Source: Flavobacterium fluviatile
Lineage (GTDB): Bacteria > Bacteroidota > Bacteroidia > Flavobacteriales > Flavobacteriaceae
Assembly (NCBI RefSeq): GCF_010645065.1
Contig: NZ_JAADZW010000001.1
Coordinates: forward strand, 248,001 to 312,000
Length of the DNA: 64,000 nt
Direction of reading: 5' to 3'
The notes beneath the pieces were generated by a model. It was not told where the DNA came from and ran no database searches. It saw only the letters and a program-made list of their open reading frames with translations. Positions 1,315 through 63,119 of this stretch are shown here, in pieces. Position 1 is the stretch's first letter. Each line of letters starts with the position of its first letter. Made by a program: the position numbers and the translations under genes.

Positions 1315-1359
1315 CCCGATAAAGCAGGACAACTATTTGAATCCCCTATACTAATTTTA
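1315..1359 (+). promoter_or_regulatory. Regulon box 1: 10-bp direct repeat plus -7 element, upstream of GH3
   Basis: CCCGATA (1315-1321) and CAGGACA (1325-1331) form a 10-bp-period repeat; the first copy is degenerate. TAATTTTA at 1352-1359 fits a Bacteroidota -7 box (TAnnTTTG/A) and starts 27 bp after the second repeat. The GH3 start codon is 51 bp beyond the -7 box start. Same geometry as boxes 2-5 and 7-9. Confidence 0.7.
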
Positions 1360-1402
1360 GAATCTAGAATAGAGTAGACTAAAAGTATTAATATTATTTA
1401 CA

Positions 1403-3550
1403 ATGATTAAATCACATTCGTTATTTGTTAGATTCTTTTTTGTGCTAGTAGTAGCCCATGTTCAATTAGGATTTGCACAGCAATCGAATACAGAGATTGC
1501 TGCCAAGGTTAAAGTACTATTGGGAAAAATGACTTTAGACGAAAAAATAGAACAATTAACGCAAGATGCTCCTGAAAACACGCGCTTAGGTATTCCTATG
1601 ATGAAATACAGTGAATGTTTGCACGGCTTGTGGTTAGACAATGCCACAGTATATCCGCAAGCGATTGCTTTGGGTTCTACTTGGGAACCGAAATTGCTTC
1701 AGGAAATGACTACGCATATTGCTTTAGAAGCCAGAGCGGCTAATTTAACGCATTGTTATTCACCTAATTTAGATGTGATTACAGGTGATCCACGTTATGG
1801 TCGTGTGGAAGAATCTTATGGTGAAGATCCGTTTTTGGTTTCCAAAATGGGTGTTGCCTTTGTAAACGGACTTCAAGGAACGGGTAATGAACGTTTTGAT
1901 AAAAATCATATTATGGCTACGGCCAAACATTTTGTAGGCTATCCTGAAAACCGTCGTGGTATCAATGGAGGTTTTAGTGATATGTCTGAAAGAAGATTGT
2001 TTGAAATTCATTTGCCACCTTTTGAAGCTGTTGTAAAAGAAGCCAAAGTAGGTTCGTTAATGCCAGGACATCAAGATTTTAATGGTATTCCTATGCACAT
2101 GAATAAAGTGCTTTTGCAAGGATTGTTGCGCGATAAATGGGGATTTGATGGCTTTGTTGTTTCAGATAATAATGATGTTTTACGACTAAATTTAATGCAT
2201 TCGATTGCTAAAGATAGAGTAGAAGCAGCCATTTTAGGATTGAAAACAGGAGTCGATATGGACTTGGTAATTGGTAAAAGTTTGGAATGGTCCACTTATA
2301 CAAATGCCGTTTTGAAACAAGCCTTACAAAGAGACCCTTCGATTATTAAAAATATTGACCAAAGTGTGAGCCGAGTTTTAACGGCTAAATACAGATTGGG
2401 TTTGTTTGAAACATTAGGAAAAACCTATCCTGATAAATTAGTTAGTAAGCCTGAAAGTCAAGCAGTATCCTTGAAAATTGCCAAAAAAGCAATCGTATTG
2501 TTGAAAAATGAAAATGATTTATTGCCTTTGGATAAAAACAAAATTAAAAGCATTGCGGTAATAGGGCCAAATGCTGATGAAAATAAATTGCCAAATGGAA
2601 AGTTTCCTTTGTTAGGAGGCTATACTGGCGCGACTCCTTATTATGTTTCGGTTTTACAAGGAATTAAGGATAAAGTAGGGAAAGATATAAAAGTAAATTA
2701 TGCCAAAGGTTGTGATTTATATACAGATTCTAAAGTTGGATTTGATGAGGCAATAAAAGCAGCTCAAAATTCAGATGTGGTTATTCTAGCTGTTGGTGGT
2801 TCTTCTCTTACTTGTGGCGAAGGAATCGATAGAGATAATTTAGATTTAATTGGCGTTCAAAACGAATTGGTAGAAGCAATTCATAAAACAGGAAAACCGA
2901 TTGTAGCTGTGTTGATTAATGGGCGTCCTTTGTCCATCAATTTTATAGCTGAAAAAATTCCATCGATTTTAGAAACTTGGTATTTAGGCATGAAATCAGG
3001 TGAGGCGATTGCTGAAACTATTTTTGGAGACAACAATCCAGGAGGGAAATTGAGCGTTTCTTTTCCGCGTTCGGTAGGGCAAATTCCGGTTACTTATTTG
3101 GAAAAACCTGATTTTGTAGGTTCAGGAAAAGGATTGTATAAGTTTGCTGATAAAACACCATTATTTGCTTTTGGACAAGGAATGAGTTATACCACTTTTG
3201 AATATAAAAATTTAAAATTAACTCAGCCGACCATTACTGTTAACGAAAAAACAACAGTTTCGGTTGAAGTGACCAACACTGGCAAACGTGATGGTGACGA
3301 GATTGTGCAAATGTATGTAAGAGATGATTTTGCTTCTGTTGGAAGATACAACAAAATGCTAAAAGGTTTTGAGCGTGTTCATCTCAAAGCAGGTGAAACC
3401 AAATCGGTTCAGTTTGAATTGAATTTTGACAATCTATCGATTTACAATCAAGAAATGAAAAAAGTGGTGGAGCCAGGAGATTTTACCATTTCAGTTGGAG
3501 CTTCATCTTTAGCCAAAGATTTGACAACAATTAAACTAACCGTAAAGTAA
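1403..3550 (+). CDS. GH3 beta-glycosidase (beta-glucosidase/xylosidase type)
   Basis: A 715-residue exo-acting beta-glycosidase of family GH3. An N-terminal signal peptide ends near FAQQ (about residue 26), so it is exported, probably to the periplasm. The GH3 (beta/alpha)8 domain spans about residues 40-340 with the KHFVGYPENRRG substrate-binding segment and the VVSDNND motif, in which Asp255 is the predicted nucleophile. The alpha/beta sandwich domain (about 370-580) and a C-terminal fibronectin III-like domain (about 640-710) follow, a usual full-length GH3. In ulvan-type PULs GH3 enzymes can be beta-xylosidases removing xylose; that role here is inference. It is preceded by regulon box 1 and followed 116 bp later by the GH-A/CBM gene, so the two may be co-transcribed. 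Confidence 0.88.
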   Translation: MIKSHSLFVRFFFVLVVAHVQLGFAQQSNTEIAAKVKVLLGKMTLDEKIEQLTQDAPENTRLGIPMMKYSECLHGLWLDNATVYPQAIALGSTWEPKLLQEMTTHIALEARAANLTHCYSPNLDVITGDPRYGRVEESYGEDPFLVSKMGVAFVNGLQGTGNERFDKNHIMATAKHFVGYPENRRGINGGFSDMSERRLFEIHLPPFEAVVKEAKVGSLMPGHQDFNGIPMHMNKVLLQGLLRDKWGFDGFVVSDNNDVLRLNLMHSIAKDRVEAAILGLKTGVDMDLVIGKSLEWSTYTNAVLKQALQRDPSIIKNIDQSVSRVLTAKYRLGLFETLGKTYPDKLVSKPESQAVSLKIAKKAIVLLKNENDLLPLDKNKIKSIAVIGPNADENKLPNGKFPLLGGYTGATPYYVSVLQGIKDKVGKDIKVNYAKGCDLYTDSKVGFDEAIKAAQNSDVVILAVGGSSLTCGEGIDRDNLDLIGVQNELVEAIHKTGKPIVAVLINGRPLSINFIAEKIPSILETWYLGMKSGEAIAETIFGDNNPGGKLSVSFPRSVGQIPVTYLEKPDFVGSGKGLYKFADKTPLFAFGQGMSYTTFEYKNLKLTQPTITVNEKTTVSVEVTNTGKRDGDEIVQMYVRDDFASVGRYNKMLKGFERVHLKAGETKSVQFELNFDNLSIYNQEMKKVVEPGDFTISVGASSLAKDLTTIKLTVK

Positions 3551-3666
3551 TTTTCTATAATACCATCGATGATCATTTGTTAGTGGTTTTTTTATTATGT
3601 TTTTCTCATCCAAGGAATCCATAAACTCAAATTATTAATGATGAATAACCCAAAAAAAACAAATTT

Positions 3667-6420: not shown

Positions 6421-6465
6421 CAGGATAAAACAGGATAAAGAGTCGTTTGCTTAACTGTAAATTTA
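6421..6465 (+). promoter_or_regulatory. Regulon box 2: perfect 10-bp direct repeat plus -7 element, upstream of GH78
   Basis: CAGGATA occurs at 6421-6427 and again at 6431-6437, inside a perfect 10-bp tandem. TAAATTTA at 6458-6465 is the -7 box, 27 bp after the second repeat starts. It lies in the 462-bp gap 6343-6804, which otherwise shows only AT-rich sequence. The distance to the GH78 ATG (6805) is unusually long, about 340 bp. Confidence 0.72.
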
Positions 6466-11788: not shown

Positions 11789-11833
11789 CAGCACAACACA
11801 GGACAGGCTGATTTTTTCTCTTTTGTATTTTTA
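11789..11833 (+). promoter_or_regulatory. Regulon box 3: direct repeat plus -7 element, upstream of GH2
   Basis: CAGCACA (11789-11795) and CAGGACA (11799-11805) form the 10-bp-period repeat. TATTTTTA at 11826-11833 is the -7 box, starting exactly 27 bp after the second repeat starts. The GH2 start is 48 bp past the -7 box start. Confidence 0.72.
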
Positions 11834-15444: not shown

Positions 15445-16491
15445 TTAGATCGAATTTCCGATACCTACCAAAACAATAGAAAGCAGAATTAAAGCAATTC
15501 CGTATAAAAAGGTACGGAACGTTTTAGGAGACACACCCTTCCATTCTTTTAAGATTAATCCCCAAATATTTGCTGTTAAGATAATGGTTGCCATATGTGC
15601 AATCCATGAACTAGCTCCGTTTCCTAATTTACTTTCTCCCATTCCATAGAAAAAGAATTGCAAATACCACATGGTTCCCGCGAGAGCAGATAACAACACA
15701 TTTCTAAGAATTGGGGTATTTTCATTAGTATAATCGCCGAATGTTCCGTTCTTGAAATTTAGATACAAACACCAAATAAAATTAGTTGTCAATCCACCCC
15801 AAAGTAAGACAACATACGTTACATTGTTTTGAAATAATGGATTGAACCCTTGTTCTACTGCTACGTCTGCCATTGGTTTTCCCGCCTCTATTCCGAAATT
15901 GAAAAATGAACTTAAAATACCTGAGATGATAGCAATTATTAAACCTTTTACTAAATCAAATTCTTGTTTGTCTAATTCTCCTCCTGCTAAATCTTTTTCT
16001 TTCATCATTCCAGCCTTCCCAGAGAAAGCAATACCTAAAAGACAAACAAAAACGCCCAGTAAAACTAATTGTCCCCCTGGACTAGCAAGCATATCCGAAA
16101 AAGTAACTTTGCCCTCAGTAGGATTAAAATTGTAATAAATAGGAGGTACCAATGCACCAAAAGCCGAACAGAACCCTAATACAATAGAGTTACCTAACGA
16201 CATTCCTAAGTAGCGAACGCCCAACCCATAGGTCAACCCCCCAATTCCCCAGATTACTCCCATAGAATAGGTAAAAGCTTTTACAGAAAAAACAGTTTCC
16301 GAGATGATTTCCATAAAATTAGGAACCGTTAAGTAAGCTGCCAATGGAGGAACAATCAACCAAGAGAATAATCCGCCTACAATCCAGTAACTTTCCCAAG
16401 CCCATCCTTTTACTCTTTTGAAAGGCATGTAAAAACTTCCGGATGAAATTCCCCCGATGGTATGATAAAGAAGACCTAATAATGCTTGCAT
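15445..16491 (-). CDS. rhaT: L-rhamnose/H+ symporter RhaT
   Basis: A 348-residue integral membrane protein with about ten hydrophobic segments, close to the usual length of the RhaT family (L-rhamnose-proton symporters of the drug/metabolite transporter superfamily). The N-terminus (GLLYHTIGGISSGSFYMPFKR) and WESYWIVGGLFSW are characteristic of RhaT. It imports L-rhamnose across the inner membrane after periplasmic release by rhamnosidases. It is the last gene of the five-gene minus-strand rhamnose operon, 41 bp after the lldD-like gene. Confidence is high because family and context agree. Confidence 0.93.
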   Translation of the reverse strand: MQALLGLLYHTIGGISSGSFYMPFKRVKGWAWESYWIVGGLFSWLIVPPLAAYLTVPNFMEIISETVFSVKAFTYSMGVIWGIGGLTYGLGVRYLGMSLGNSIVLGFCSAFGALVPPIYYNFNPTEGKVTFSDMLASPGGQLVLLGVFVCLLGIAFSGKAGMMKEKDLAGGELDKQEFDLVKGLIIAIISGILSSFFNFGIEAGKPMADVAVEQGFNPLFQNNVTYVVLLWGGLTTNFIWCLYLNFKNGTFGDYTNENTPILRNVLLSALAGTMWYLQFFFYGMGESKLGNGASSWIAHMATIILTANIWGLILKEWKGVSPKTFRTFLYGIALILLSIVLVGIGNSI

Positions 16492-16532
16492 ATTTTTGTT
16501 TTTTTAGGGTTAAATTATAGTATTTGGAGTAA

Positions 16533-17681
16533 TTATTTGATTAAATGGTTTGAGAAATCTTCAACAGTTGCACAATTTAATTGCTCCATTACTTGTTGTA
16601 ATTCTGTTTTTAATAATGTCATTGTGTGATCGCCTCCTTTTTTACCAAGGGCAGCTACTCCGTACATAAATGAGCGTCCCATAAAGGTAAACTTCGCGCC
16701 ACACGCCATTGCTCGTGCTACATCTGGTCCAGAGCGTACCCCACTGTCCATCATGATTTCGATTTGGTCGCCGTATTTGGCTACCAATCTTTTTAATGAG
16801 TTTATTGCTGATTCTCCAGCGTCTAATTGACGACCACCGTGGTTGGAAACTATAATTCCATCAATTCCTAAACGAATCGCTTCTTCGATATCTTCTTCAG
16901 ATGCGACACCTTTAAGTACTAACTTTCCTTTCCACATGTCTCTGATAGGCTTTATTTTAGCCTCGTTCAAACGTCCAGAAAAAGTATCGTTCATGAATTT
17001 CCCCAATTGTTTTAAATCCAAACCTTTAGGCATATAGGGTAGTAAGTTTGCGAAACCAGGTTGACCGTGAATTAAAGTTTGCATCGCCCATTCTGGTTTG
17101 CCCATTACCTGTAAAATATTAGCAACCGACATTTTAGGAGGCATTGCTAAACCGTTACGAACATCTCTGGGTCTGAATCCAAAAGTAGGTACATCACAAA
17201 GGATCACCAGAACTGGACATTCGGCTGCAGCGGCTCTTTTGATTAAATCATCTCTTAGTTCATCCTTAGCAGGATGGTACAATTGGAACCATGATTTTCC
17301 TTGGGTAATCTCACTAACGCGTTCGATATTACTGGTAGTTACCGTACTTAAGATAAATGGAACATTGTGATCAAAGGCAGCTTTTGCTAAAATTTCAGTA
17401 GCATTAGGCCACATTAATCCTTGTAGTCCAACAGGAGCTACACCAAAAGGCGCATCGTATTCAATGCCAAATAACTTGGTTTTCATACTAGAACCTTGAT
17501 GGTCTCTAAGGTAATTTGGTTTTAGTTGTACTTCTCTTAATTCCGAAGTATTTCTATGTAAATTAACATCTTCGTTACAACCTCCGTCAAGATACTCAAA
17601 AGCAAATCTTGGTATCTTTTTTTGCGCTTGTTTTCTTAAGTCGTCTATGGAAGGGTATCTCGAGTCTAATTGTGATGCCAT
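16533..17681 (-). CDS. lldD: FMN-dependent L-lactate dehydrogenase (LldD-like alpha-hydroxy-acid oxidase)
   Basis: A 382-residue member of the FMN-dependent alpha-hydroxy-acid dehydrogenase family, whose usual length is 350-400. The start RYPSIDDLRKQAQKKIPRFAFEYLDGG, the FMN-binding PVGLQGLMWPNA segment and the catalytic SNHGGRQLD motif (active-site His, substrate-binding Arg) are all present. The family oxidises L-lactate to pyruvate. Its place between rhaB and rhaT fits removal of the L-lactate formed from L-lactaldehyde in the non-reductive rhamnose pathway. It begins 10 bp after the kinase gene ends, so translational linkage is likely. Another alpha-hydroxy acid is possible but less likely here. 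Confidence 0.88.
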   Translation of the reverse strand: MASQLDSRYPSIDDLRKQAQKKIPRFAFEYLDGGCNEDVNLHRNTSELREVQLKPNYLRDHQGSSMKTKLFGIEYDAPFGVAPVGLQGLMWPNATEILAKAAFDHNVPFILSTVTTSNIERVSEITQGKSWFQLYHPAKDELRDDLIKRAAAAECPVLVILCDVPTFGFRPRDVRNGLAMPPKMSVANILQVMGKPEWAMQTLIHGQPGFANLLPYMPKGLDLKQLGKFMNDTFSGRLNEAKIKPIRDMWKGKLVLKGVASEEDIEEAIRLGIDGIIVSNHGGRQLDAGESAINSLKRLVAKYGDQIEIMMDSGVRSGPDVARAMACGAKFTFMGRSFMYGVAALGKKGGDHTMTLLKTELQQVMEQLNCATVEDFSNHLIK

Positions 17682-17691
17682 AATAGCTTTT

Positions 17692-19065
17692 TTAGTTGAT
17701 TATAAAAGGAACGTGTTTTTTAAGTGAATAATTTTCTTTCAAAAACTTAGAGTTCAATTTGGTGTCTGAAATGGAAATGGCAGCTCCAAGAGCCGAACCT
17801 AAAGAAGAATTGGTAGAGCGAAGCACCATATCTCTAAGATAATGGGATAGTAACTTGATAAATACATCATTGTCGCTAAAGCCTCCATCTACAAAAAGTT
17901 TGGTGATTTTAAGACCTCCTGCTGCTCTTTTAATGCTTTGTACTTGTAAAAGAACCAATTCAATCATTAATTGATGGTAGGCCTCTGTGAAATTATCATA
18001 AATAATTTCGGTTTTTGCAGGCATATTAGCATCTTCAATAGCGTTCCATCTAAAATAATATTTAAAATCCTTTTTAATACGGTGGTATATTTCAGAATCA
18101 AAAACCACTTTTTTATGGTAATCATGTGCTAAACCAAAATGATCCGCTAAGGCATGTACTTGATGAGTGTATTCATTACCTAATAACAATCGAGCTGATT
18201 TTACGGGTTTACCATTAATTCGCATATAATTGATACAATCGTCTTGAATGTCCTTTTCTGTTAATGTTTTATCTGAAAAAGGATTCATAGAAACACTCCA
18301 AGTTCCTGTAGAAACCAAAATAAAAGGTTCTTTGGAACTACGCACATATGGTAATAGAGCAGATGAACTATCGTGAATTCCCACCCCAATTTTGATTCTT
18401 TTTCCGTTATAGTTCATATTGATACTCGTCTCGGTAGAAACAATGGGAGGGAGGATTTTGTGAATTTCTTCTTCGTACACCCAACTGTGATAATCTTTCT
18501 TTTCATAATCCCAAAGCGCCGTATGACAACCTATACTGGTATATTCGCTCAACGGGATTCCAGTAAAGATATAACTCATATATTGTGGCAAGTGCAAAGA
18601 GTATTTGATTCTTTTGAACACTTCAGGCTTGGAGTGTTTTAACCAATATAATTGCATGCCTGAGTTTAACATACCCGAATTAGTAGAACCCGTTTGGGCT
18701 GAAAATTCTAATTCAGGCCCGTATTTTTCATAGAAAGAGGCAATTAACGCCTCGTCCATGGGTTTAGTATAATTGTAAAGAGGAGTTACTAATTCGCCAT
18801 TTTCGTCCAAATGAACAAAACTAGCGCCATAGGTAGAAAAATTGATGGCTTTAACATCATATTCTTGTGCCTCTAAAATTCTATGAAATAATTCTTTAAG
18901 CCAATTATGTAAAGCGACGATGTCTTCGGTAGGATAACCATCTTCGTCTTTAATTTCCTCAAATTTAATGTACTCACGATACACTTCTTTGAAGTCTTTA
19001 TCAAAGAGAAAGAATTTTTTATTGGTTTTTCCAATATCAAAAACGGCGGTTACTTTTTGTTTCAT
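17692..19065 (-). CDS. rhaB: Rhamnulokinase (FGGY family)
   Basis: A 457-residue FGGY-family carbohydrate kinase. The N-terminal phosphate-binding loop of the actin-like ATPase fold is visible (AVFDIGKTNKKFFLF), and the C-terminal half has the second ATPase motif (LFVDGGFSDNDVFIKLL). It should phosphorylate L-rhamnulose to L-rhamnulose-1-phosphate. The assignment among FGGY sugars rests on context: isomerase upstream, aldolase two genes upstream, and rhamnose transporter downstream. It is followed 10 bp later by the lldD-like gene and is 81 bp from rhaI. Slightly shorter than the E. coli enzyme; no missing part is obvious. Confidence 0.88.
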   Translation of the reverse strand: MKQKVTAVFDIGKTNKKFFLFDKDFKEVYREYIKFEEIKDEDGYPTEDIVALHNWLKELFHRILEAQEYDVKAINFSTYGASFVHLDENGELVTPLYNYTKPMDEALIASFYEKYGPELEFSAQTGSTNSGMLNSGMQLYWLKHSKPEVFKRIKYSLHLPQYMSYIFTGIPLSEYTSIGCHTALWDYEKKDYHSWVYEEEIHKILPPIVSTETSINMNYNGKRIKIGVGIHDSSSALLPYVRSSKEPFILVSTGTWSVSMNPFSDKTLTEKDIQDDCINYMRINGKPVKSARLLLGNEYTHQVHALADHFGLAHDYHKKVVFDSEIYHRIKKDFKYYFRWNAIEDANMPAKTEIIYDNFTEAYHQLMIELVLLQVQSIKRAAGGLKITKLFVDGGFSDNDVFIKLLSHYLRDMVLRSTNSSLGSALGAAISISDTKLNSKFLKENYSLKKHVPFIIN

Positions 19066-19146
19066 ATTTATTAAATAAATTCCAAAAATTAAATTCCAAA
19101 TTTCAATAAATGAAAAAGGAATGGTCTTATAAAAAAAGCTTTAAAA

Positions 19147-20427
19147 TTAAAGACCTGTTGCTACTGAATTACGGCCTCTTTCTTTGATTAATTCATTTCT
19201 TACATCTAATGAACGGAAAGCTTGGATTGGACTAATAACGCCACCTCTGTTCAATCTTGCTTTTTCCAGCAAAGGTCTCACGTCTGTTCTATAGGCTCCT
19301 TGCAAAATTTCTTGGCATTTTACTACATCGTGCTCTTGTTGTGCTGCTTCTAAAGCTGCTTGATCTACCAATAAGGCTTTTGCAAAAGCTTCTTGAATTG
19401 CTTCTAATGATTGGATTAAATCTTCCAAAGGATCTTTTACGTTATGACTCGCATCAATCATCCAAGCTAAGTCTGGATTTTGAGGGTTGTTAGCCATTCC
19501 GTATACCAATTCTTTAAAAATTAAGAATAAAGCATAAGGTTTGATACTTCCAGCGGTTAAATCGTCATCACCGTATTTACTATCGTTGAAGTGGAAACCA
19601 CCTAATTTTCCTTTTAACATTAAAATCGAAACAATTTGCTCAATATTGCTGTTTGGTAAATGATGTCCTAAGTCTACTAACGATAAGGCTTTTTCACCAC
19701 ATTCGTTAGCCAACATAAAGGATGTTCCCCAATCTTGAATTACAGTAGAGTAGAAGTTAGGCTCGTATGGTTTGTACTCAATTAACATTTTCCAGTCTTC
19801 AGGCAATCCTTTGTAGATGTCTTTTAAACTGTCTTGGGTGTTTTGTAAAGCTGCTTGAAAGTTATTTTGTCCTGGAAAACAAGAACCATCAGCCAACCAC
19901 ACTGTTAAAGCTTTTGACCCTAGTTTGTTACCAATGTTGATTACATCAATATTATGTTGGATGGCTTGTTGTCTTATTTCTTTTTCAATATTACTTAGCG
20001 AACCGTATTTGTAGCTGTATTTAGAATCTTTTTGGTCTTGGAATGTATTCGAATTGACGGCATCGAACTTAATATCTAATGATTGAGCTATATCCTTAAT
20101 AGCATTGTAATCTTGCGGTACATCCCATGGAATGTGTAAAGATACCGCACCAGCAGTTTGAGTAAGGGAGTGGATTAATCCAATATCTTCAATTTTTTGT
20201 TCCAAAGTAGAAGGCTCTCCGTAGAAAGAAAAACGTCCAAAACGTGTTCCTCCAGCACCTAATGCCCAACTTGGAATAGCAATTTGAAAGTCAGCCAATT
20301 TAGAAAGGATAGCCTCTACATTGTGACCGTTTTTAGTTAATTTATTGGCTAAGAAATCAAAATTTTCTTTATGTGAATCAAGACCACTTTTGTTAGCATC
20401 TTGAATTTGTTCAGTAGTTATTTTCAT
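19147..20427 (-). CDS. rhaI: L-rhamnose isomerase (RhaI type)
   Basis: A 426-residue sugar isomerase of the xylose-isomerase-like TIM-barrel superfamily, of the non-E. coli L-rhamnose isomerase type. Metal-binding and substrate residues lie in segments such as WLADGSCFPGQNNF, MLIEYKPYEPNFYSTVIQDWG, LVDLGHHLPNSNIEQI and GGFHFNDSKYGDDDL. It converts L-rhamnose to L-rhamnulose in the cytosol. It is second in the operon, separated from the aldolase/dehydrogenase gene by 108 bp that contain a long inverted repeat. Length and motifs are normal; confidence is high. Confidence 0.92.
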   Translation of the reverse strand: MKITTEQIQDANKSGLDSHKENFDFLANKLTKNGHNVEAILSKLADFQIAIPSWALGAGGTRFGRFSFYGEPSTLEQKIEDIGLIHSLTQTAGAVSLHIPWDVPQDYNAIKDIAQSLDIKFDAVNSNTFQDQKDSKYSYKYGSLSNIEKEIRQQAIQHNIDVINIGNKLGSKALTVWLADGSCFPGQNNFQAALQNTQDSLKDIYKGLPEDWKMLIEYKPYEPNFYSTVIQDWGTSFMLANECGEKALSLVDLGHHLPNSNIEQIVSILMLKGKLGGFHFNDSKYGDDDLTAGSIKPYALFLIFKELVYGMANNPQNPDLAWMIDASHNVKDPLEDLIQSLEAIQEAFAKALLVDQAALEAAQQEHDVVKCQEILQGAYRTDVRPLLEKARLNRGGVISPIQAFRSLDVRNELIKERGRNSVATGL

Positions 20428-20456
20428 GGTTGTATTTTATATAAAGTGAAAATTCT

Positions 20457-20516
20457 AAGGTCGAAAGTTATAAAGCAAAACTAGACAAGCTAGAATACTT
20501 TATGACTTTCGACTTT
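20457..20516 (-). repeat. Long inverted repeat between the aldolase/dehydrogenase gene and rhaI
   Basis: AGGTCGAAAGTTATAAAG (about 20458-20475) pairs with CTTTATGACTTTCGACTTT (20498-20516), with two imperfect positions that can be G-U pairs in RNA. An inner CTAG/CTAG stem closes the loop. There is no U-run at its end, so it looks more like an mRNA processing or stability element than a terminator. Confidence 0.65.
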
Positions 20517-20535
20517 AAACTTTAAGACTAATTTC

Positions 20536-22641
20536 TTATCTTACAAAAGCATTTGCCATTCCACCATCAACATTGATGATGTTTCCGGTAGATTTGTCTA
20601 ATAAACCTACTAATGCAAATACTCCAGTTGCAATATCATCTGGAGTGATGATTTCGTTTAATAAATTTCTTTTAGCGTAGAATGCTGGTAATTCTTCCAC
20701 GGTAATTCCGTTCGCTTTAGCCCTTCCTTCAGCCCAAGCACCTTCCCAGATTTTACTACCTACAATAACACCATCAGGGTTGACCGTATTTACTCTTACT
20801 TTGTCTTTTGCTAGTTCAGCTGCTAATAAACGTACCATGTGTTGTTGCGCTGCTTTTGCAGTTCCGTAAGCTACATTGTTTGGACCAGCGACTAAACCAT
20901 TTTTACTAGCAATAGCAATATAATCACCACCCAAACCTTGTTTGCGAACGATTTCGGTAAATTGTTTCGCTAAATCAAATTGTCCTTTTACAAGGATACT
21001 TTGTAGAATATTCCAGTCTTTATCTGTCGTTTCTTCGATAGATTTAGAGATTGCTAAACCTGCACTGTGAACAATAATGTCTACACCTCCAAATTCAATA
21101 ACCGCTTTTTTATATGCCGATGCAATAGATTCAATATTCGTTACGTCACAAACAGCATAGGTTGAAACGTCTCTTTTGTAAGTAGCATTTGCTTCAATAA
21201 GTGCTTGTTCATTGATGTCAGTAAGGACTACATTAGCACCATTTGCTGCTAATTTATCAGCAATCGCTTTACCAATTCCTCCACCTGCACCAGTAACTAA
21301 GGCTACTTTACGAGACAAAGCCGCTTCTTTTGGCATACGAGATAATTTGGCTTCTTCTAGCAACCAATATTCGATATCAAAAGCCTCTTGTCTTGGTAAT
21401 GAAGTGTAGGCTGTAATTGCTTCAGCACCACGCATTACGTTGATCGCGTTGATGTAAAATTCACTTGCTACACGTGTGGTTTGTTTGTCTTTTGAGAAAC
21501 TAAACATACCTACACCAGGATAAATGATAATCACTGGGTTTGGATCACGCATCGCTGGGCTATTGCTTTTTTTGCAAGTATCGTAATAGTTTTTATATTC
21601 TTGTCTGTAAGCTTCAAAAGCAGGCTCTAATTTTTTAAGAATAGCGTCCGAGTCAGATAAATCTTCATTTGGATCTAAAGTCAATACCAAAGGTTGGATT
21701 TTAGTTCTCAAGAAGTGGTCAGGACAAGAAGTCCCCATTGGAGCCAAACGCTCTAAATCATTACTATTGATGTATTCCATCACGACATCGCTATCAGAGA
21801 AGTGACCAATCATTCTTTTTTCAGATGAACAAAGTCCTCTTAATAAAGGCATGATTTGCGCTGCTTTTTCAAGACGCGCTTCTTTTGGTAAACTTTGTAC
21901 TTTTTGTCCACCAAAAACACTTCCTTTTTCAGCAATTTTTTTCTCAATATATTCAGAAGCCATTTCGATAACTTCTAAACTGTTCATGTAACACTCATAA
22001 GAAGTGTCTCCCCAAGTAAACAAACCGTGAGAACCTAAAACTATACCTCTAATTCCTGGATTGTCAGCTAAACATTTTTCTAATTGAAGACCTAAGTCAA
22101 AACCAGGACGTTGCCATGGCACCCATCCCATAGTGTCACCCCAAATTTCTTTAGTAACTTTTTCGCTATCAGCAGCAGCTGCAACCGCAATTAAAGCATC
22201 AGGGTGTAAGTGGTCAATATGTGCAAATGGTAATAATCCGTGCAAAGGTGTATCGATAGAAGGTGCTTTACTATCTAAGTCATAAATACAGTGGTCAAAA
22301 AGGCCTACCATACGGTCTTCATCCTCTAATCCGCCATATACTTTTTTTAAGTCACGTAATCTTTCAGTATACAAACCTGCAATACCTGCTCTGGTTAAAG
22401 TTCCAATATCACCACCTGAACCTTTTACCCACATTACTTCTACTTCCGCATTGGTCAAAGGGTCTTTTTCGATAGTTTTACAACTCGTGTTTCCACCACC
22501 ATAGTTTGTAATTCTTAGGTCGGCACCTAAAATATTTGAGCGATATAAAAATAAAGCTACTTGATCATCTCCTAAAGCATTTGCTTTTTCGTTATCCCAT
22601 AAGTAATTCACATGGTTGAATTTTTTAACTGCTGTATCCAT
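20536..22641 (-). CDS. rhaEW: Bifunctional L-rhamnulose-1-phosphate aldolase / L-lactaldehyde dehydrogenase (RhaEW type)
   Basis: A 701-residue fusion. The N-terminal part (about 20-400) is a class II aldolase/adducin-type domain with the zinc-site segment TPLHGLLPFAHIDHLHPDAL and VLGSHGLFTWGD. The C-terminal part (about 435-701) is a short-chain dehydrogenase with the nucleotide-binding TGAGGGIGKA motif and YGTAKAAQQ with the catalytic Tyr and Lys. It should split L-rhamnulose-1-phosphate into DHAP and L-lactaldehyde and oxidise the latter to L-lactate. First gene of the operon, directly downstream of regulon box 4. No separate lactaldehyde reductase and no rhaM mutarotase gene are present in the window. 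Confidence 0.92.
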   Translation of the reverse strand: MDTAVKKFNHVNYLWDNEKANALGDDQVALFLYRSNILGADLRITNYGGGNTSCKTIEKDPLTNAEVEVMWVKGSGGDIGTLTRAGIAGLYTERLRDLKKVYGGLEDEDRMVGLFDHCIYDLDSKAPSIDTPLHGLLPFAHIDHLHPDALIAVAAAADSEKVTKEIWGDTMGWVPWQRPGFDLGLQLEKCLADNPGIRGIVLGSHGLFTWGDTSYECYMNSLEVIEMASEYIEKKIAEKGSVFGGQKVQSLPKEARLEKAAQIMPLLRGLCSSEKRMIGHFSDSDVVMEYINSNDLERLAPMGTSCPDHFLRTKIQPLVLTLDPNEDLSDSDAILKKLEPAFEAYRQEYKNYYDTCKKSNSPAMRDPNPVIIIYPGVGMFSFSKDKQTTRVASEFYINAINVMRGAEAITAYTSLPRQEAFDIEYWLLEEAKLSRMPKEAALSRKVALVTGAGGGIGKAIADKLAANGANVVLTDINEQALIEANATYKRDVSTYAVCDVTNIESIASAYKKAVIEFGGVDIIVHSAGLAISKSIEETTDKDWNILQSILVKGQFDLAKQFTEIVRKQGLGGDYIAIASKNGLVAGPNNVAYGTAKAAQQHMVRLLAAELAKDKVRVNTVNPDGVIVGSKIWEGAWAEGRAKANGITVEELPAFYAKRNLLNEIITPDDIATGVFALVGLLDKSTGNIINVDGGMANAFVR

Positions 22642-22664: not shown

Positions 22665-22709
22665 CAAATTTATAGTATGCATCAAGTTCATCTATCCTGT
22701 TTTGTACTG
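22665..22709 (-). promoter_or_regulatory. Regulon box 4: direct repeat plus -7 element, upstream of the rhamnose operon
   Basis: On the minus strand CAGTACA (22709-22703) and CAGGATA (22699-22693) form the 10-bp-period repeat, and TAAATTTG (22672-22665) is a consensus -7 box starting exactly 27 bp after the second repeat. The aldolase/dehydrogenase start is 31 bp past the -7 box start. The remainder of the divergent gap up to the GntR gene (about 22715-23117) is AT-rich without a recognisable operator. Confidence 0.75.
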
Positions 22710-23117
22710 TAGTATAAGCAGTTTTTTTAGTAATGATTTTCTATTTCTATAAAAATATATTGGTTTTAGTAAAAAGCTATTGTTCAAAAAAATTTTAAAA
22801 ATAATTTTTCAAAGGGAAATTAATAAAATGGCAATACTTTAAAAATTACAGTATCTATATTTTATTTTTCAATTTATTTTAAAAATCATAAAAAATAATC
22901 ATAATTTTTTCAGAACCAAAAATCACTTAATGTTTAGTTAATTTTTTATCGATCGTTTTTACTGTCAAATTCTATTTGTAAGAAAAAAACTTAAAAAACA
23001 CTCATTTTCATGAATGAACGCTTAAATATGGGATTTTTGAATACTCTAATTGGTACTTTTTGATTCTTATAACCCTTTAAATTGCACTTAAGTTTTCTAA
23101 ATATTAATTCATACTTG

Positions 23118-24176
23118 ATGCTTATGGAATTATTACACCACTTAGATGTTGATAAAAAATCTAGAATACCAATGTATCAACAAATCGTTGATTCAATCAC
23201 CAATAATATTTCTGTTGGTAAAATTGAATTAAATTATAAATTACCATCTATCAATACTATTAGTGAAGATTTTAATTTATCGAGAGACACGGTAGAGAAA
23301 GCATATAATATACTAAAAGAACGTAATATTATTGTTTCTATACCACGCAGAGGAAATTATGTTGCAAAGGTGGAAACAAATCACAAGCTGAATATTCTTT
23401 TTTTGGTAAGCAAAACGAGTTCTTACAAAATGAGTATTTATAACGCCTTTTTAAATAGAGTAGGAGTAACATCAAAAATAGACTTGGCTATTTACCATTG
23501 TGATGAATTTGTTTTTGTGAACACCTTAAAAAATGCAAAGTTAGTTTACGATTACTATGTGGTGATGCCGCATTTTAAAAACGACAAATTGCAACATGCT
23601 AGTTTTACCGACTCCACATTAGAAATAATACAAAGTATTCCTAAAAATAAATTAATGATTTTAGATAATGTAATGCCTCCTTTGTTAGAAGATAAAGATG
23701 TAACAGCAGTATATCAGGAATATGATAACGATATTTATGAAGCTTTAAAACAAGCCATGTATAAAATTAATAAATACAATAAAATTGCTTTGGTTTATCC
23801 AGAAAAGTCAATATATCCGTATCCACGAAGAATTTTACATGGTTTTAGGAAATTTTGTTTAGAATTTGAAAAAGATTTTGAAATACTAAACGAAATATGC
23901 GAAGATATGGAGTTTAAAGAAAAAGATTTATTTATTACCATCGAAGAAGGTGATTTGGTTAATCTAATTAGTCAGATACGTAAAAAGGGATTGCAAATGG
24001 GAGAGGATATAGGTGTTATTTCTTACAATGATACTCCATTAAAAGAATTATTGGGTATCGCTACAATGACTACCGATTTTAAAATAATGGGAGAAACTGC
24101 CGCCGATATGATTTTAAACAACGAAAAAGGGAGGTTTAAAGTTCCATTTAAATTTATAGACAGAATGTCAATTTAA
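23118..24176 (+). CDS. GntR-family transcriptional regulator with periplasmic-binding-protein-like sensor domain
   Basis: A cytosolic DNA-binding regulator of about 352 residues. The N-terminal winged helix (about residues 10-75: RIPMYQQIVDSITNNI, LPSINTISEDFNLSRDTVEKAYNILKERNII, PRRGNYV) is typical of GntR proteins. The remainder resembles a LacI/periplasmic-binding-type effector domain. ATG codons at 23118 and 23124 are both plausible starts; the frame also runs back to a TTG at 23082. It is divergent from the rhamnose operon, with box 4 in between, which makes rhamnose, rhamnulose or a phosphorylated derivative the likely effector (inference). It is a candidate to bind the regulon boxes, although GntR proteins usually prefer palindromes. 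Confidence 0.87.
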   Translation: MLMELLHHLDVDKKSRIPMYQQIVDSITNNISVGKIELNYKLPSINTISEDFNLSRDTVEKAYNILKERNIIVSIPRRGNYVAKVETNHKLNILFLVSKTSSYKMSIYNAFLNRVGVTSKIDLAIYHCDEFVFVNTLKNAKLVYDYYVVMPHFKNDKLQHASFTDSTLEIIQSIPKNKLMILDNVMPPLLEDKDVTAVYQEYDNDIYEALKQAMYKINKYNKIALVYPEKSIYPYPRRILHGFRKFCLEFEKDFEILNEICEDMEFKEKDLFITIEEGDLVNLISQIRKKGLQMGEDIGVISYNDTPLKELLGIATMTTDFKIMGETAADMILNNEKGRFKVPFKFIDRMSI

Positions 24177-24274
24177 ATTAGTTGGTAGTGCAAAAACAAG
24201 AACTAAATTTTAATATTTAATAGAAATATTTTTTACATTGCTAGCCCTTTACATTAGTTAATAAAAGCTTTACA

Positions 24275-27200
24275 ATGCCTAAATTTTCTGTATTATTAAT
24301 TCTTTTTTCATTTACATGGAGTAGTTTTTCGCAAAACGAAATCTACAAGTTTAAACATTTTTCAACTTCCGAAGGTCTATCTCAGTGTTCTGTAATGTCG
24401 ATCATTCAGGATAATTTGGGGCAAATGTGGATAGGTACCAGAGATGGTTTGAATAAATATGACGGTTCGGAATTTACAGTGTTTAGACATCTCAAACATG
24501 ATTCGAAAACTATTAGTAATAACGATATCAATACCTTAGAGCAAGATAGTGAAGGGTTTATTTGGATTGGAACGGCCTTGGGTTTAAACAAATACAACCC
24601 CAAGGATGATACTTTTATTTCTTATTATAGTAATGATAGTACCACTTCTCTAATAGATAATGTTATTTGGAAAATAAAAGAATTATCTAATAAAGAATTG
24701 TGGATAGGAACTCCATCTGGTCTATCAATTTACCATCGGGATACTAATTCATTTAAATCTATCTTACAAAATGAGCAAATACTATCCATTTTTGAAACAA
24801 ACAAAGGCGTTGTTTTCATCGGCACTAAAAAAGGGTTAAAACAATTGATGGGCATATCGGAAGGGAAGTATCTTTTTAGAACGATAAAAGGCACCGAAAA
24901 TCTGAATATTCAGGATATAATACAAAATTCGAATGGTAATTTATTATTAGGAACCAGAACCCAAAGTGTATTAGAATATAATAGTAATAAAGATGAATTG
25001 ACACCTTACTTTAAAGGGGAAGTACTACAAGAAAAAAATGAAAATGTAAGACAACTATTGTTTGATAATGCCGGAAAACTTTGGATTGGTACCTATAAAG
25101 GAATTAAAATTGCGGATAGAACTAAAAGTAAAAGAAGTTTTACCACCAATATTAATGACAACGAAAGTATTAGTGACAATTTCATTAGAACTTTATTTAA
25201 AGACAAAAAAGGATCAATATGGATTGGAACTTATAATGGAGGTATTGATCTTTGGGATAAAGCAAATGTTAATTTTATTAATATTACTCAAAAACCAGGT
25301 AATTTAGGTTTAGGATTTAAAGTGGTGAGTTCTATAGCTGAGTATAAAAATTTTTTATTTTTTGGAACAGAGGGAGGTGGGATTACAGTACTAAATACAA
25401 AAAATAAAGAGTATAATTACATCAATACTAGTAACACTCCTGCTTTAAAAAGCGATAATATAAAAACGTTATACATTAGTAAAGATGATAATCTGTGGAT
25501 AGGGACTTTTGAAGATGCTTTTGTAGTTTATAATCTAAAGACAAAAAAAATAGAAGACAATCCTTTACATCAAAAATTACTATCATATTTGAGTGGAATT
25601 GGTGTATATGTTATAAAGCAAGATAACAATGGCGATATGTTACTTGGAACCATTGGAAAAGGATTAATTAGGTATTCTATTCATACAAAATCATTTCAGA
25701 TAATTGATAATGAAACCAAACCCATAGGATTATTAAATAATATTATTAGAGCCATTTTGGTTGACTCTAAAAATAATATTTGGGTAAGTACAATTAAAGG
25801 TTTAAATGTTATTACACCGAAGGGAAAAATTAAAAAGTTTTTTTTTGACAAAACAGTAAGTAAAAGATATAGTGTTAATACTCTTTTTGAGGACTCTAAA
25901 GGAACTATTTGGATTGGCACTGAAGGAGACGGCTTATATAAACTTGATAAAAAAGGTCTTAAATCAATAGATTTGAAAATTGGAAATACAAATTGGATAA
26001 TTGGGATAAGAAGTATAGTAGAAGATAAAAAAGGAAACCTTTGGATAAGTACAGTTAATCAGGGAATTATTAAATATAATCCAGTTAAGCAAAGTATTTT
26101 ATCACACTACACACAAAAACAAGGGCTTATAAGTAATCAATATAATAATAACTCAAGTCTGCATTTAGGAAATTCTAAATTCTTTTTTGGAGGCCCTTCC
26201 GGAGTTGTTTATTTTGATTCTAATCGGTTAATTAAAAATTACTATTCGCCTCAAGTAGTAATTTCTGATTTTAAAATTAAAAATAAATCAATTTCTGTAC
26301 ATGACTCAAATAAATTACTCTCTAAAACAATAACTTTCACTAAAGAGATTGAACTTTCGTATGAGCAAGGTAATTTTAATATTATTTTCTCTATTCCAAA
26401 CTTTATTAATACCAGTAGCAATCGTTATCAATATAGATTAAGAGGATTAGAGCAAGATTGGAATGAAACGAGTCAAAACTCGGTGTTTTATACCATTCAG
26501 AATCCCGGAAATTACGTTTTTGAAGTAAAAGGTGTAAACAATGACGGAGTATCAACTGGTAAAGCAACTACATTAAAAATTAGAGTTAATCCTGCACCTT
26601 GGCGAACTTGGTGGGCTTTTTTAATTTATGGTGCGCTTATTTTTTTCGCTTTATATTTTTTACTGAATATTTTAAAGTCAAAATCAAACTTGAAACATCA
26701 ACTAGATTTAGAGAAAATAGAATCGGAACAAGAAAAAGAGATAAATGCGGCTAAACTAGAATTTTTTACCAATATATCCCACGAGTTCAGAACTCCATTA
26801 ACACTTATTTTAGGTCCCTTACATCAAATCCTTGAAGATTACAAGGGAAGTAGTACGATGTATAAGAAATTAAGAGTTATCGAAAGTAGTGCCAATCATT
26901 TGCTACAACTCATTAATAGATTAATGGATTTTAGAAAACTAGAAAGCAATCTAATAAAGCTCGAAACGGCAGAAGGAAATATTGTAAAATTTTTAAAAGA
27001 AATATATTTATCCTTTACAGAGTATGCGAAAGATGGAAACTATGAATATACTTTTGACGCACCTGCTGAAGAAATTTTAGTTTATTATGACCGATATAAA
27101 TTGGAACGTGTTTTTTATAATTTAATATCAAATGCATTTCGATATACGCCTAAAAATGGAAAAATAGGCATAAGAATTTTACAAAATAAAGGAGAAATAA

Positions 27201-28333: not shown

Positions 28334-28386
28334 ATAAGAATATATTTGGAGTTCAGATAAGTCATTTTAAATAAAATTTAATTGAG

Positions 28387-28860: not shown

Positions 28861-28927
28861 TATAAAAGTTATATTATTGATGTCAAAATTATCAAACTAA
28901 TAATATTAACTAATTATTATTACTTAT

Positions 28928-33645: not shown

Positions 33646-33664
33646 TTTAAAAAAAATATAGCTT

Positions 33665-45586: not shown

Positions 45587-45630
45587 CAGGACAAAGCAGT
45601 ACAGGAATTAGGCTTTATTTATAGAAATTG
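45587..45630 (+). promoter_or_regulatory. Regulon box 6: direct repeat upstream of the PL28 lyase, atypical -7 spacing
   Basis: CAGGACA (45587-45593) and CAGTACA (45597-45603) form the 10-bp-period repeat, and a partly overlapping third CAGGA follows at 45602. No good -7 box starts 27 bp after the second repeat. TTTATTTA at 45614-45621 is 27 bp after the first repeat, and TAGAAATTG at 45622-45630 is another candidate. This is the one site that departs from the common geometry. Confidence 0.6.
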
Positions 45631-45672
45631 CATTCTAAATACTAATTCTAATAACCTATTTTAAAGTTAATT

Positions 45673-47360: not shown

Positions 47361-47405
47361 CAGGGCAATGCAGGACATGAATTTTTTTCTAAGAAAATAA
47401 ATTTG
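47361..47405 (+). promoter_or_regulatory. Regulon box 7: direct repeat plus -7 element, upstream of the lone CBM protein
   Basis: CAGGGCA (47361-47367) and CAGGACA (47371-47377) form the 10-bp-period repeat. TAAATTTG at 47398-47405 is a consensus -7 box starting exactly 27 bp after the second repeat starts. The start codon is 84 bp past the -7 box start. Confidence 0.75.
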
Positions 47406-51670: not shown

Positions 51671-51818
51671 TCTAAATCATATATTCTAGTCGCTTCACCA
51701 AAGTTAGAACACTTTCGTTAATGTTCCAAAACCACTTTTCTTGAGATCTGTGGCTTAAAAATAAATTTAGTTCCCTTGAAAGCGGTTGAATGATTGCGTA
51801 TTTAATAAAAATAATAAA

Positions 51819-53230
51819 ATGATAAAAGTAGGATTGTTTGGTATCGGTTTGGATACCTATTGGCCACAGTTTGAGGGTTTGTTAGAACGTTTGGAAGGCT
51901 ACCAAAACCAGATTGCCAATAAAATGGAAACCTTCGGAGCCGAAGTAGTGAATGTAGGATTGATAGACTCCCCTATGAAAGCAAGAGAAGCTGCTGAATT
52001 TTTGAAAAAAGAAGATGTGGGTATTATATTTCTATATGTTTCGACCTATGCCTTGTCATCGACTGTTTTACCAGTGGTGCAAAAATTAAAATGCCCAATA
52101 GTAATTTTGAATATCCAACCAGTAGCTGCTATTGATTATGAAAAGTTCAATAAAATGGGCGATCGTGGTCTAATGACTGGCGAATGGCTAGCGCATTGCC
52201 AAGCCTGTTCTGTACCAGAAATTGCCAATGTTTTTAACCGTTCCGGTTTGGACTATGAGTTTGTAACAGGTTATTTGGGCGAACAATCGGTTTGGGATGA
52301 AATTCAAGATTGGATTGAAGCTGCCAACGTAGCCGATGTGATGCACAATAATCGTCTCGGTGTTTTAGGGCATTACTATTGCGGGATGCTTGATGTCTAT
52401 TCTGATTTAACCAAACAAGCAGCTGCCTTTGGCACACATATCGAAATTGTTGAAATGTGCGAACTTAAAAAACATAGAGACGAAGCCACCCATGCAGAAA
52501 TAAAAGCAAAAATGGAAGAGCTTCAGAATACTTTTGAGGTTGTTGACGAATGTGAGGAACAAGAGTTATTTCGTGCTGTTCTCACTTCAATTGCCTTGGA
52601 TAAATTGGTGCAGAATCACAATTTAGGTTCCTTGGCGATTATTACGAAGGAGAATCGGGGAATGAATATGAAAATATTGTAACCTCTGTAATCGCTGGAA
52701 ATACGTTGCTAACAGGGAAAAATATCCCAGTAGCAGGAGAATACGAAATTAAAAATGCCCAAGCCATGAAAATCATGGATGCCTTTGGTGTGGGTGGATC
52801 TTTCTCAGAGTTTTATGCGATGGATTTTAACGATGATATTGTGATGCTAGGGCATGATGGTCCTGCTCATTTTGCCATTGCCGAAGGTAAAGTACAACTA
52901 GTGCCACTTCCTGTTTACCACGGAAAACCGGGTAAAGGCCTTTCGATACAAATGACCGTAAAACATGGTCCTGTAACCTTACTCTCGGTGGTAGAAGGTA
53001 AAGATGAAGTCTTTTTATTGGTCGCCGAAGGAGAATCAGTCGCAGGTCCTGTGCTTCAAATAGGGAATACCAACAGCCGTTATCGTTTTTCAATTGGCGC
53101 ACGTGCTTCTATGAACGAATGGTCTAAACAAGGGCCTTCACATCATTGCGCCATTGGGGTAGGACATATTGCCAATAAAATTGACAAACTCGGTAATTTA
53201 TTGAAATTAAAAGTGGTTCGAATTTGTTAA
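51819..53230 (+). pseudogene. L-fucose/L-arabinose isomerase family gene, interrupted by a frameshift
   Basis: Two frames together encode one isomerase of about 470 residues. The first (51819-52682; ATG at 51819 preferred over the TTG at 51786) reads MIKVGLFGIGLDTYWPQFEG to about LGSLA and then loses homology. From about 52636 the -1 frame continues with [20 protein letters not shown] and [17 protein letters not shown], ending at 53230. The pattern fits loss of one T in a GCG-TAT-TAT-TAC run near 52637. The family interconverts aldoses and ketoses; the substrate here is unknown, and rhamnose already has its own isomerase. It is a pseudogene if the deletion is real, or an intact gene if it is a sequencing error. 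No regulon box precedes it. Confidence 0.8.
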
Positions 53231-53266: not shown

Positions 53267-53311
53267 CAAGACAGTACAGGATAAAAATTATATAGCTAAG
53301 ATTTAAGTTTA
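53267..53311 (+). promoter_or_regulatory. Regulon box 8: direct repeat plus -7 element, upstream of GH106
   Basis: CAAGACA (53267-53273) and CAGGATA (53277-53283) form the 10-bp-period repeat. TAAGTTTA at 53304-53311 is the -7 box, starting exactly 27 bp after the second repeat starts. The GH106 start is 130 bp past the -7 box start. Confidence 0.7.
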
Positions 53312-62500: not shown

Positions 62501-63041
62501 GGTAAGTTTTCCGATGAAGAACGAAACGGTTTTAAAAGAAACCTTCAATAATTTAACATCTTGGGCAACTGCAGCTAATGATGATATTCGTTATTTTTCG
62601 GGTACGGCCAGTTATAAAAAGCAGTTTGATATTCCAGCGCATTTACTAAAAGAGGAGTATTCGTTACAATTAGATTTGGGAATTGTAAAGGAAATTGCTG
62701 AAGTTTTTGTGAATGGCAAAAATCTGGGCATTTACTGGAAAGCGCCGTTTAGCATTGATATCAATAAGTTAGTGGTGGCAGGAAATAATACATTAGAAAT
62801 AAAAATTATTAACCTTTGGCCCAACCGTTTGATTGGCGATGAACAACTGCCTTTGGATTACGAACGAAAAGGCCCTAATGTTTCCAAATGGCCCGATTGG
62901 CTTTTGAACAATAGCTCACGTCCCACAGACCGTACTACTTTTGCTGCTTTTAAACATTGGCATAAAGATTCAAAACTGCTACCATCGGGTTTATTGGGAC
63001 CTGTTAAAATTATAGTTTATAAAGTGGCAGTGCTGCAATAG
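59523..63041 (+). CDS. GH106 alpha-L-rhamnosidase (second)
   Basis: A 1172-residue exported enzyme when started at the ATG at 59523, where a signal peptide begins (MNQKGFLKTLIILQNKTVFISL, cleavage near GIAQK). The same frame is open back to a TTG at 59412, which would add 37 residues without clear function. The GH106 catalytic domain shows TIWFWINGNVSRAGITADLEAMKKNGIQGAILFN, FHNGAGWSSSGGP, HIDSYEVGTTNWT and MLISTEPYWGPF. A GH2-like beta-sandwich ends the protein (LGIVKEIAEVFVNGKNLGIYWKAPF). Unlike the first GH106 it has no lipobox and is probably periplasmic. It is last in the run before regulon box 9 and the sulfatase. Confidence 0.9.
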   Translation: MNQKGFLKTLIILQNKTVFISLLLCLFLSNGIAQKTTLEQNFQNPPASAKARTIWFWINGNVSRAGITADLEAMKKNGIQGAILFNVSLGNPKGVVSYLSPDWLELFHFAALEAKRLGLELGFHNGAGWSSSGGPAITPEFAMQKLVYSKTVHQGNKVFRGKLPQPETKLDYYKDIAILAFPNPKSNQRIDELDIKTLSDKVRSHLAPDAKPISDLAIVKKSEIIDLTSKLATDGSLNWKAPAGDWVILRIGHTPTGEMNRFASDGGRGLECDKMSTEAVDLFWNGNIMPILNKLDGLVGTVVNRCHIDSYEVGTTNWTKNFAAEFQRLRSYDCHMYLPTLAGYYVESSEESERFLWDFRRTIGDLMAKKYYGRMAELSHQHGMLISTEPYWGPFDNMQVGETADLVMSEFWSGYLAFFDSPKFVASIAKLNGNNIAEAEAFTDTGGWQRHPGALKKMGDLAWAQGINRFVIHCYVHQPWNLGPGLTLQSFGIDFNRLNTWWNQGKSFLDYIGRGQFLLQQGKSVADVLVFTGEASPNDALLMPEIKALGYDYDVIGSNKISSLSVKEGLICTAVGDKYQALVLPDTPWMTPEILQKIEELTKGGAVILGTKPKKSPSLQNFPNCDNQLTQIADALWDNGLIQDSSVVKSLQKGTLPPDFSVANGNNKALEYIHRKTADTDIYFVVNKLKESQTINCRFRVSGKQPEFWNAETGAISKAAVWQDNADGTTTVAIPFASEAAVFVVFRNSIDAGNHLLSATVEVQKNRSTPLFNLKIIKAEYGTFLPDGVVDVTAVVAKSVQKNQLKVQATRDLCGGDPAPGYKKELRLQYKVGNAILEKNAMEREWLEIAAPENGKLEILKAIFGKFERGFEGLPANNQLYDVTEKVKKMVDSGVYEIPVNESFLEGNEILTKKSLRLEYATNDEVKTITVSDGGLLKLTEATAEPQLIYNQEKLNWVTPWVGKLKYQTTTGITKTLKVKSVPEAIELKGTWEVSFPMKNETVLKETFNNLTSWATAANDDIRYFSGTASYKKQFDIPAHLLKEEYSLQLDLGIVKEIAEVFVNGKNLGIYWKAPFSIDINKLVVAGNNTLEIKIINLWPNRLIGDEQLPLDYERKGPNVSKWPDWLLNNSSRPTDRTTFAAFKHWHKDSKLLPSGLLGPVKIIVYKVAVLQ

Positions 63042-63074
63042 CATAGGAAATGGATGATCGAATATAGAAAATAG

Positions 63075-63119
63075 CCGTACAATACAGGACAGGATTTTTA
63101 AAAGTTCGAAATAAATTTG
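63075..63119 (+). promoter_or_regulatory. Regulon box 9: direct repeat plus -7 element, upstream of the sulfatase
   Basis: CCGTACA (63075-63081) and CAGGACA (63085-63091) form the 10-bp-period repeat. TAAATTTG at 63112-63119 is a consensus -7 box starting exactly 27 bp after the second repeat starts. The sulfatase start lies 98 bp past the -7 box start. Confidence 0.75.

Follow-up and report, generated by a model that had tools for sequence, protein, structure and literature searches.

A direct-repeat promoter unit of ulvan and rhamnose genes in Flavobacterium fluviatile and a GntR-LacI hybrid as its candidate reader

Which regulator controls the ulvan locus of Flavobacterium fluviatile? We addressed this question in a stretch of 64,000 nucleotides of its genome (the window, meaning the whole stretch analysed), for which an earlier note had reported nine copies of a 45-bp promoter unit made of a direct repeat and a -7 box at a fixed distance from it. 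The window is an ulvan locus with genes for PL28 ulvan lyase, GH78, GH106, GH3, GH88-family, sulfatase-GH78, PL8, and SusC/SusD proteins, and it also encodes a hybrid two-component system regulator (HTCS), a GntR-LacI hybrid regulator, and a rhamnose operon; the locus extends past both window ends with sulfatases, GH2, GH43, and uronate genes. As argued below, we consider the 18-bp box that holds the repeat a likely target of the GntR-LacI hybrid, and we predict that this protein activates both the rhamnose operon and the ulvan locus as a whole in response to rhamnose.

Promoter units in the window, the genome, and the family

All nine reported sites were present at their positions. Eight are on the plus strand: at 1315-1359, a 17-bp direct repeat with its -7 box before a GH3 gene (1403), and at 6421-6465 before a GH78 gene (6706), 11789-11833 before a GH2 gene (11874), 28816-28860 before the susC/susD genes (28928), 45587-45631 before the PL28 ulvan lyase gene (45673; -7 box unmatched at the exact offset), 47361-47405 before a CBM35 protein gene (47482), 53267-53311 before a GH106 rhamnosidase gene (53434), and 63075-63119 before a sulfatase gene that starts at 63210, extends past the window end, and was assigned to its family from its downstream half. 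The minus-strand unit (22665-22709) precedes the rhamnose operon, whose first gene encodes a rhaD-type bifunctional aldolase/dehydrogenase. A box of the form TAnn(A/T)TT(G/A) was found in eight of the nine units 27 bp after the start of the second 7-mer, where the earlier note had placed it. In a scan with a matrix of 13 sites, namely the nine of the window, which were thus part of the training set, and four outside that came from the 17-mer searches and whose -7 box had been confirmed before use, exactly nine units in the window reached 20 bits; the next best match (14.4 bits) overlapped the site at 6421. Two repeats at this spacing are by themselves not unusual (21 in the window versus a mean of 15.6 in 100 dinucleotide shuffles), while the pattern plus the box occurred 8 times versus a mean of 0.07 and a maximum of 1 in 100 such shuffles. 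The matrix scans found no unit directly before the genes for the GntR-LacI hybrid (23082) and the HTCS (24275) or before the isomerase-like open reading frames (ORFs; 51786).

The 5.11-Mb genome had nine copies of the strict 17-mer, of which eight lay within C29:245862-329379, that is, in 83 kb around the window; the reversed pattern occurred nowhere in the whole genome. When up to three mismatches were allowed, the signal was lost in the background (330 and 307 matches versus 202 and 183 for the controls). With a lower cut in 144 kb around the window, 16 sites were found, spanning C29:245862 to 342950; each of the nine sites counted earlier is real, and the count itself was too low, with 16 sites over 97 kb and 7 of them beyond the window. 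Five of these seven carry the strict box at the exact offset and two a variant (TTAATTTG and GAAATTTA). A two-mismatch 17-mer at C29:234615, without a box and inside an ORF, was dropped from the matrix. Beyond the 16-site stretch, 2 (L010 and L015) of 22 places in the genome (L009-L031) had a -7 score of at least 2. Near C29:568-574k, a second rhamnose operon is accompanied by a GntR paralog (58%) and has a unit, AAGGACAGTACAGGATA / TTATTTTA, before rhaT. Two more units, at L178:10001 and L179:10017 (contigs C8 and C40), have their -7 box at the exact offset, one before a susC gene and the other before a fasciclin-domain gene adjoining susC/susD; they are possible distant members of the regulon.

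Across the family, the strict 17-mer was matched in 113 of 397 genomes. Taken as returned by this search, 7 of 30 loci had a -7 score of at least 2 at the exact offset, six of them in ulvan-type loci and one (G119) inside an ORF. We then inspected 40 fetched stretches, 38 from other genomes, which were picked for near-consensus or clustered matches and are not a random sample. In these, the intergenic matches with a -7 box lay in ulvan-type loci or at rhaD, with the exception of L178 and L179 of the F. fluviatile genome, and the matches inside ORFs were mostly without the box. The ulvan-type loci with intergenic units encode PL28, GH106, GH3, sulfatase-GH78, and BNR_4 proteins; units precede susC and a GH2 gene in Flavobacterium sp. 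UMI-01 (L104) and susC and the rhamnose operon in F. pokkalii (L105).

In 91 intergenic sites (24 of 26 region sets; one more site lay in an ORF) the information was limited to the -7 box and an 18-bp box, the latter a direct repeat of the nearly invariant CAGGAYA with a 10-bp period. A -33 TTG was not conserved in these sites, and no further repeat or conserved block was found in the 60 bp upstream of them. Since nothing else is conserved, an activator bound over the -33 region fits this profile. The flavobacterial -7 box is located at -12 to -5, TAnnTTTG being its main type in the available text of the source (PMC9723704), and if the box found here is so placed, the 18-bp box would be centred near -41. 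The 91 sites had been chosen with a condition on the -7 score, which makes them circular for spacing, and the distance was determined on a set of 86 sites without that condition. These 86 intergenic sites (by a longest-ORF rule) fell in 61,047 bp; the sequence searched, mostly from ulvan loci, comprised 948,708 bp, and its remainder had three coding sites. Of the 86, 47 had TAnn(A/T)TT(G/A) at the exact offset, and at any one of 31 other offsets the number was between 0 and 4; for genomes other than that of F. fluviatile, the figures were 34 of 69 and a mean of 0.52. Within 450 bp, 54 sites had a gene start ahead of them alone, 6 had one on either side, 3 had none, and no site had one behind it alone. 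A -7 box at a fixed distance with no -33 element is what an activator-dependent promoter of the main sigma factor would present. The genome-wide clustering, the fixed spacing elsewhere, and the orientation support the earlier proposal that ulvan enzymes, SusCD, and rhamnose catabolism form one regulon.

Two candidate readers of the unit

The evidence points to the GntR-LacI hybrid (23082-24176, plus strand) as the candidate reader and favours it over the HTCS. Its ORF matches PF00392 and PF13377 (the latter at 28.2 bits, cut-off 26.5), and the alignment of orthologs indicates that the true start is probably about 20 codons inside the ORF. The motif SRxTxEKAY is invariant in 29 aligned orthologs, a parallel to the near-invariance of CAGGAYA in the sites. 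An AlphaFold2 model (mean predicted local distance difference test score of 88) places a LacI-type effector domain behind the winged helix, and a Foldseek search with it gave the Lac repressor as the top match (E 2.3e-13, query template modelling score 0.55). The protein thus has an N-terminal GntR winged helix and a C-terminal domain of the LacI/periplasmic-binding-protein type.

A homolog of this regulator (at least 49%) was found in 15 of 15 site-positive genomes and a match in 32 of the 149 genomes of a fresh sample, the 117 without a match being partly named in the output and otherwise deduced from the order G000-G148. The association was then viewed from the regulator's side in 24 loci (L279-L302) picked by GntR homology alone, without the motif. 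A unit at 22 bits was present within about 1.5 kb in 17 of them, as scored with a second matrix trained on the 91-site set, which included some earlier GntR loci and none of L279-L302. GntR loci from the search of site-positive genomes had a unit in 9 of 15 cases, and first-order Markov shuffles of GntR loci in 0 of 195; a control of 496,963 bp with no units is not relied on, 18 of its 25 stretches having been picked after they were seen to lack units. Among the 17 unit-bearing loci, the unit lies before a divergent rhaD in 13, before rhaT in one, and only before the gene downstream of the GntR gene in three, and several loci have units on both sides. The distance from unit start to rhaD ORF start was 14 to 114 bp (12 loci measurable). 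The regulator is thus linked to rhamnose catabolic genes, with rhaD or rhaT divergent from it and a unit between, in 14 of the 24. Conversely, rhaD was matched in only 1 of 80 genomes without a GntR match and in none of the other 79, the GntR (E 1e-60) and rhaD (E 1e-150) searches scoring at most 13 and 14 candidates per genome, so that distant homologs may escape. In the genome with the lone rhaD (G024), no GntR homolog was found in 20 kb around this gene, and no match in its 5-kb rhaD locus reached 16 bits (the best had 7.9 bits).

At L305:6344 (G044), a unit lies 158 bp upstream of a GntR-type gene, and in Hyunsoonleella flava another (L109:22868) is found 148 bp ahead of a gene that shares 30% identity with the GntR of the window; these positions suggest that GntR-type genes in both genomes may be autoregulated.

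The first working idea was that the units are read by the HTCS (24275-28333, plus strand), through its AraC-type DNA-binding domain, as HTCSs do in Bacteroides polysaccharide utilization loci (PULs). The HTCS adjoins the unit-bearing susC promoter of the window, its orthologs (72% identity) also stand beside units in the two Flavobacterium records L104 and L105, and 4 of 30 HTCS loci carry a unit. Its clade (at least 45% identity) was found by a full-length search of 60 genomes, with 10 candidates per genome scored, in 11 of the 15 site-positive genomes and in G317, G322, and G129 among the other 45, not all of which are unit-free. The clade is missing from four site-positive genomes, G265, G132, G045, and G268, according to a search with the DNA-binding domain in which all candidates were scored (E 1e-20; best matches 39%, 45%, none, and none). 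The ulvan loci of these four have 12, 8, 5, and 12 listed sites, respectively, with a unit before rhaD in each; of the 12 in G268, one falls within an ORF and two have a weak box. A search for AraC-type domains (PF12833) found none in the ulvan loci of G265, G045, and G268 and one in that of G132. Four further genomes (G001, G049, G121, and G127) have units at the GntR gene and a best HTCS of 32 to 38% among the matches listed. An HTCS with an AraC-type domain is thus not found wherever the unit occurs; clade and domain are both missing from unit-bearing loci, and the idea was dropped. The contrast between 17 of 24 GntR-only loci and 4 of 30 HTCS loci with a unit goes in the same direction, as does the absence of any unit in 249,282 bp around other HTCS genes (7 stretches of the F. 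fluviatile genome and 16 loci). The period of the repeat also differs, being 10 bp here and near 21 bp in the published Bacteroides motifs (PMC3878776, as far as its available text goes), with nothing conserved in the 60 bp upstream and no 21-bp upstream repeat present. We consider it improbable that the HTCS is the reader.

Two related leads were abandoned. A comparison of HTCS DNA-binding domains with the motif for co-variation was not possible, because the HTCS relatives L106-L110 belong to other PULs (susC 30-50% identical) and have no strong site by the first matrix. AraC proteins of 291-294 amino acids (aa) beside a gene of about 638 aa occurred in G153, G044, G163, and G132 and are not a general feature; the loci concerned (L144, L146, L147, and L156, four genomes) have such a regulator gene near the unit-bearing gene of about 638 aa, which we presume, as a guess, to be the ulvan dehydratase P29_PDnc.

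How the unit may work

In the mechanism that we propose, both repeats would be read on one face of the DNA by the two winged-helix domains of one dimer, and the activator bound at the box near -41 would touch RNA polymerase at the -33 region. The LacI-type domain would hold the effector, L-rhamnose or an early catabolite. The divergent rhamnose operon would be the ancestral target, from which control would have spread to ulvan lyases, rhamnosidases, sulfatases, and SusCD through copies of the unit.

In the main mechanistic rival, the same protein reads the box as a repressor and keeps the -33 region blocked as long as rhamnose is absent. Repression is common among GntR and LacI proteins, and the box overlaps the promoter; the distance to the -7 box is nevertheless rigid across genomes, and a blocker needs no exact spacing, while the missing -33 TTG suggests a promoter that needs help. 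Repression accordingly seems unlikely to us, though less so than reading by the HTCS. It is also conceivable that the actual reader, be it some other, unlinked regulator or a special sigma factor, simply accompanies the rhamnose and ulvan genes, and a regulator encoded elsewhere would be compatible with the co-occurrence. The -7 box, however, is of the main flavobacterial type described in the available part of PMC9723704, and units flank the GntR gene in genomes chosen by GntR homology alone. In the 100-kb locus of G045, moreover, the GntR protein was the sole transcription factor found among ORFs of more than 150 aa; the 14 such ORFs unmatched to the F. fluviatile locus were scanned, and none was a transcription factor and one had no family. 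This last alternative is in our estimate the least probable of all.

Several observations weigh against activation by the GntR-LacI hybrid. GntR-LacI proteins like AraR are repressors that recognise palindromes, and the box here is a direct repeat. The unit before the PL28 gene (45587) has GAAATTGC at the -7 offset and lacks the box there. There was no unit within 1.5 kb in 7 of the 24 GntR-only loci; in wider stretches L279, L283, and L300 gained one (L311, L307, and L313), L289 had only weak ones, and L287, L296, and L298 still had none. The closest GntR homolog (G071) has no unit in the surrounding 15 kb. The genome of F. fluviatile has four GntR homologs of at least 43%, that of the window included, and the actual reader may be any one of them. 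On the side of the HTCS, the susC gene beside it carries a unit both in the window and in the named Flavobacterium records L104 and L105, the 634,639 bp that surround HTCS relatives of named genomes contained two units (L109 and L110), and the HTCS gene of G339 is followed by one. Even so, we hold that the GntR-LacI hybrid is likely the activator and that the HTCS is probably not the reader; the finding of the earlier note is real and larger than stated, and probably misassigned if read as an HTCS regulon.

The remaining features of the locus are as follows. The rhamnose catabolic genes (15445-22641, minus strand) encode RhaT, a flavin mononucleotide-dependent dehydrogenase, an FGGY kinase, an isomerase-like protein, and the aldolase/dehydrogenase. 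Two adjacent ORFs, at 51786-52682 and 52706-53230, match models of the arabinose/fucose/sulfoquinovose-isomerase type; a single 469-aa ORF of G132 matches the first of them at 80%, and the gene at 51786-53230 therefore looks split. When the window was compared with L104 and L105, the GntR, HTCS, SusC/D, and next two genes (23082-35594) were 57-80% identical to the Flavobacterium copies and the left-flank enzymes 92-98% identical; by these identities, there is a sharp mosaic boundary around the sensor-uptake block. A second HTCS (L033:2004-6083; G000:C29:230004-234083, minus strand), whose DNA-binding domain is 67% identical to that of the window HTCS, lies near genes for glucuronate isomerase and mannonate dehydratase.

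Relation to known regulons and meaning

The unit system is best classed as a variant of the rhamnose regulon. Known rhamnose regulators (RhaR/RhaS) belong to the AraC, DeoR, and LacI families, and in the text available of that comparison (PMC3870299) the regulator is linked to rhamnose genes that have an operator in front, enzymes for saccharides with rhamnose belong to some of the regulons, and the motifs of DeoR-type RhaR are direct repeats of 10-11 bp period, all as in our case. What differs is the regulator, here a GntR-LacI hybrid (the word GntR is absent from the main text of PMC3870299), and the reach of the regulon, which takes in a complete ulvan PUL with SusCD, unlike those described in the available text. 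That GntR winged helices can read direct repeats is known from the MocR-type regulators TauR, GabR, and PdxR, which have direct-repeat operators and often activate a divergent operon, TauR reading CTGGACYTAA repeats (PMC5320631, available text). The likeness to MocR regulators ends with winged helix and operator: the sensor here is LacI/periplasmic-binding-protein-like and not aminotransferase-like, a Pfam scan of the GntR protein having found no aminotransferase-like domain and its fold being LacI-like.

AraR of Bacillus subtilis, itself a GntR-LacI hybrid, is a repressor of sugar catabolism with a palindromic operator. It shares with the present protein the two-domain plan and the tie to sugar catabolism, and its DNA-binding domain (PDB 4egy) was a weak match; in contrast to its palindrome and repression, the conservation profile here is a direct repeat only, without a palindromic operator, at a fixed distance from the -7 box. 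Bacteroides HTCS regulons, finally, also control SusCD loci through tandem direct-repeat operators; their motifs have an average distance of 21 bp, not the 10-bp period seen here, an HTCS is not always present where our unit occurs, and only two of the HTCS regulons in the available part of PMC3878776 reach inner-membrane transporters and kinases. The earlier note knew of no published description of the motif, and our literature search, conducted at the level of abstracts and passages and with thin coverage of subscription literature, likewise found none, nor any of a GntR-type rhamnose regulator in Flavobacteriaceae.

For the family as a whole, we regard it as somewhat better than an even guess that the master switch of ulvan degradation is one cytoplasmic GntR-LacI rhamnose sensor that binds a direct repeat of 10-bp period at -41 and replaces the -33 element, so that a monosaccharide end product would run a SusCD locus and the HTCS would be an optional late addition. 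If this is true, the GntR-LacI type would join the AraC, DeoR, and LacI rhamnose regulators reported in the available text of PMC3870299, and a single sugar signal could switch on the whole cluster. The sequence code predicts ulvan and rhamnose promoters in many genomes and points to one regulator, and with a geometry as fixed as this, activation at flavobacterial promoters can be put to a direct test. Attention in a seaweed-polysaccharide locus thereby moves from the sensing of oligosaccharides in the periplasm to the sensing of an end product.

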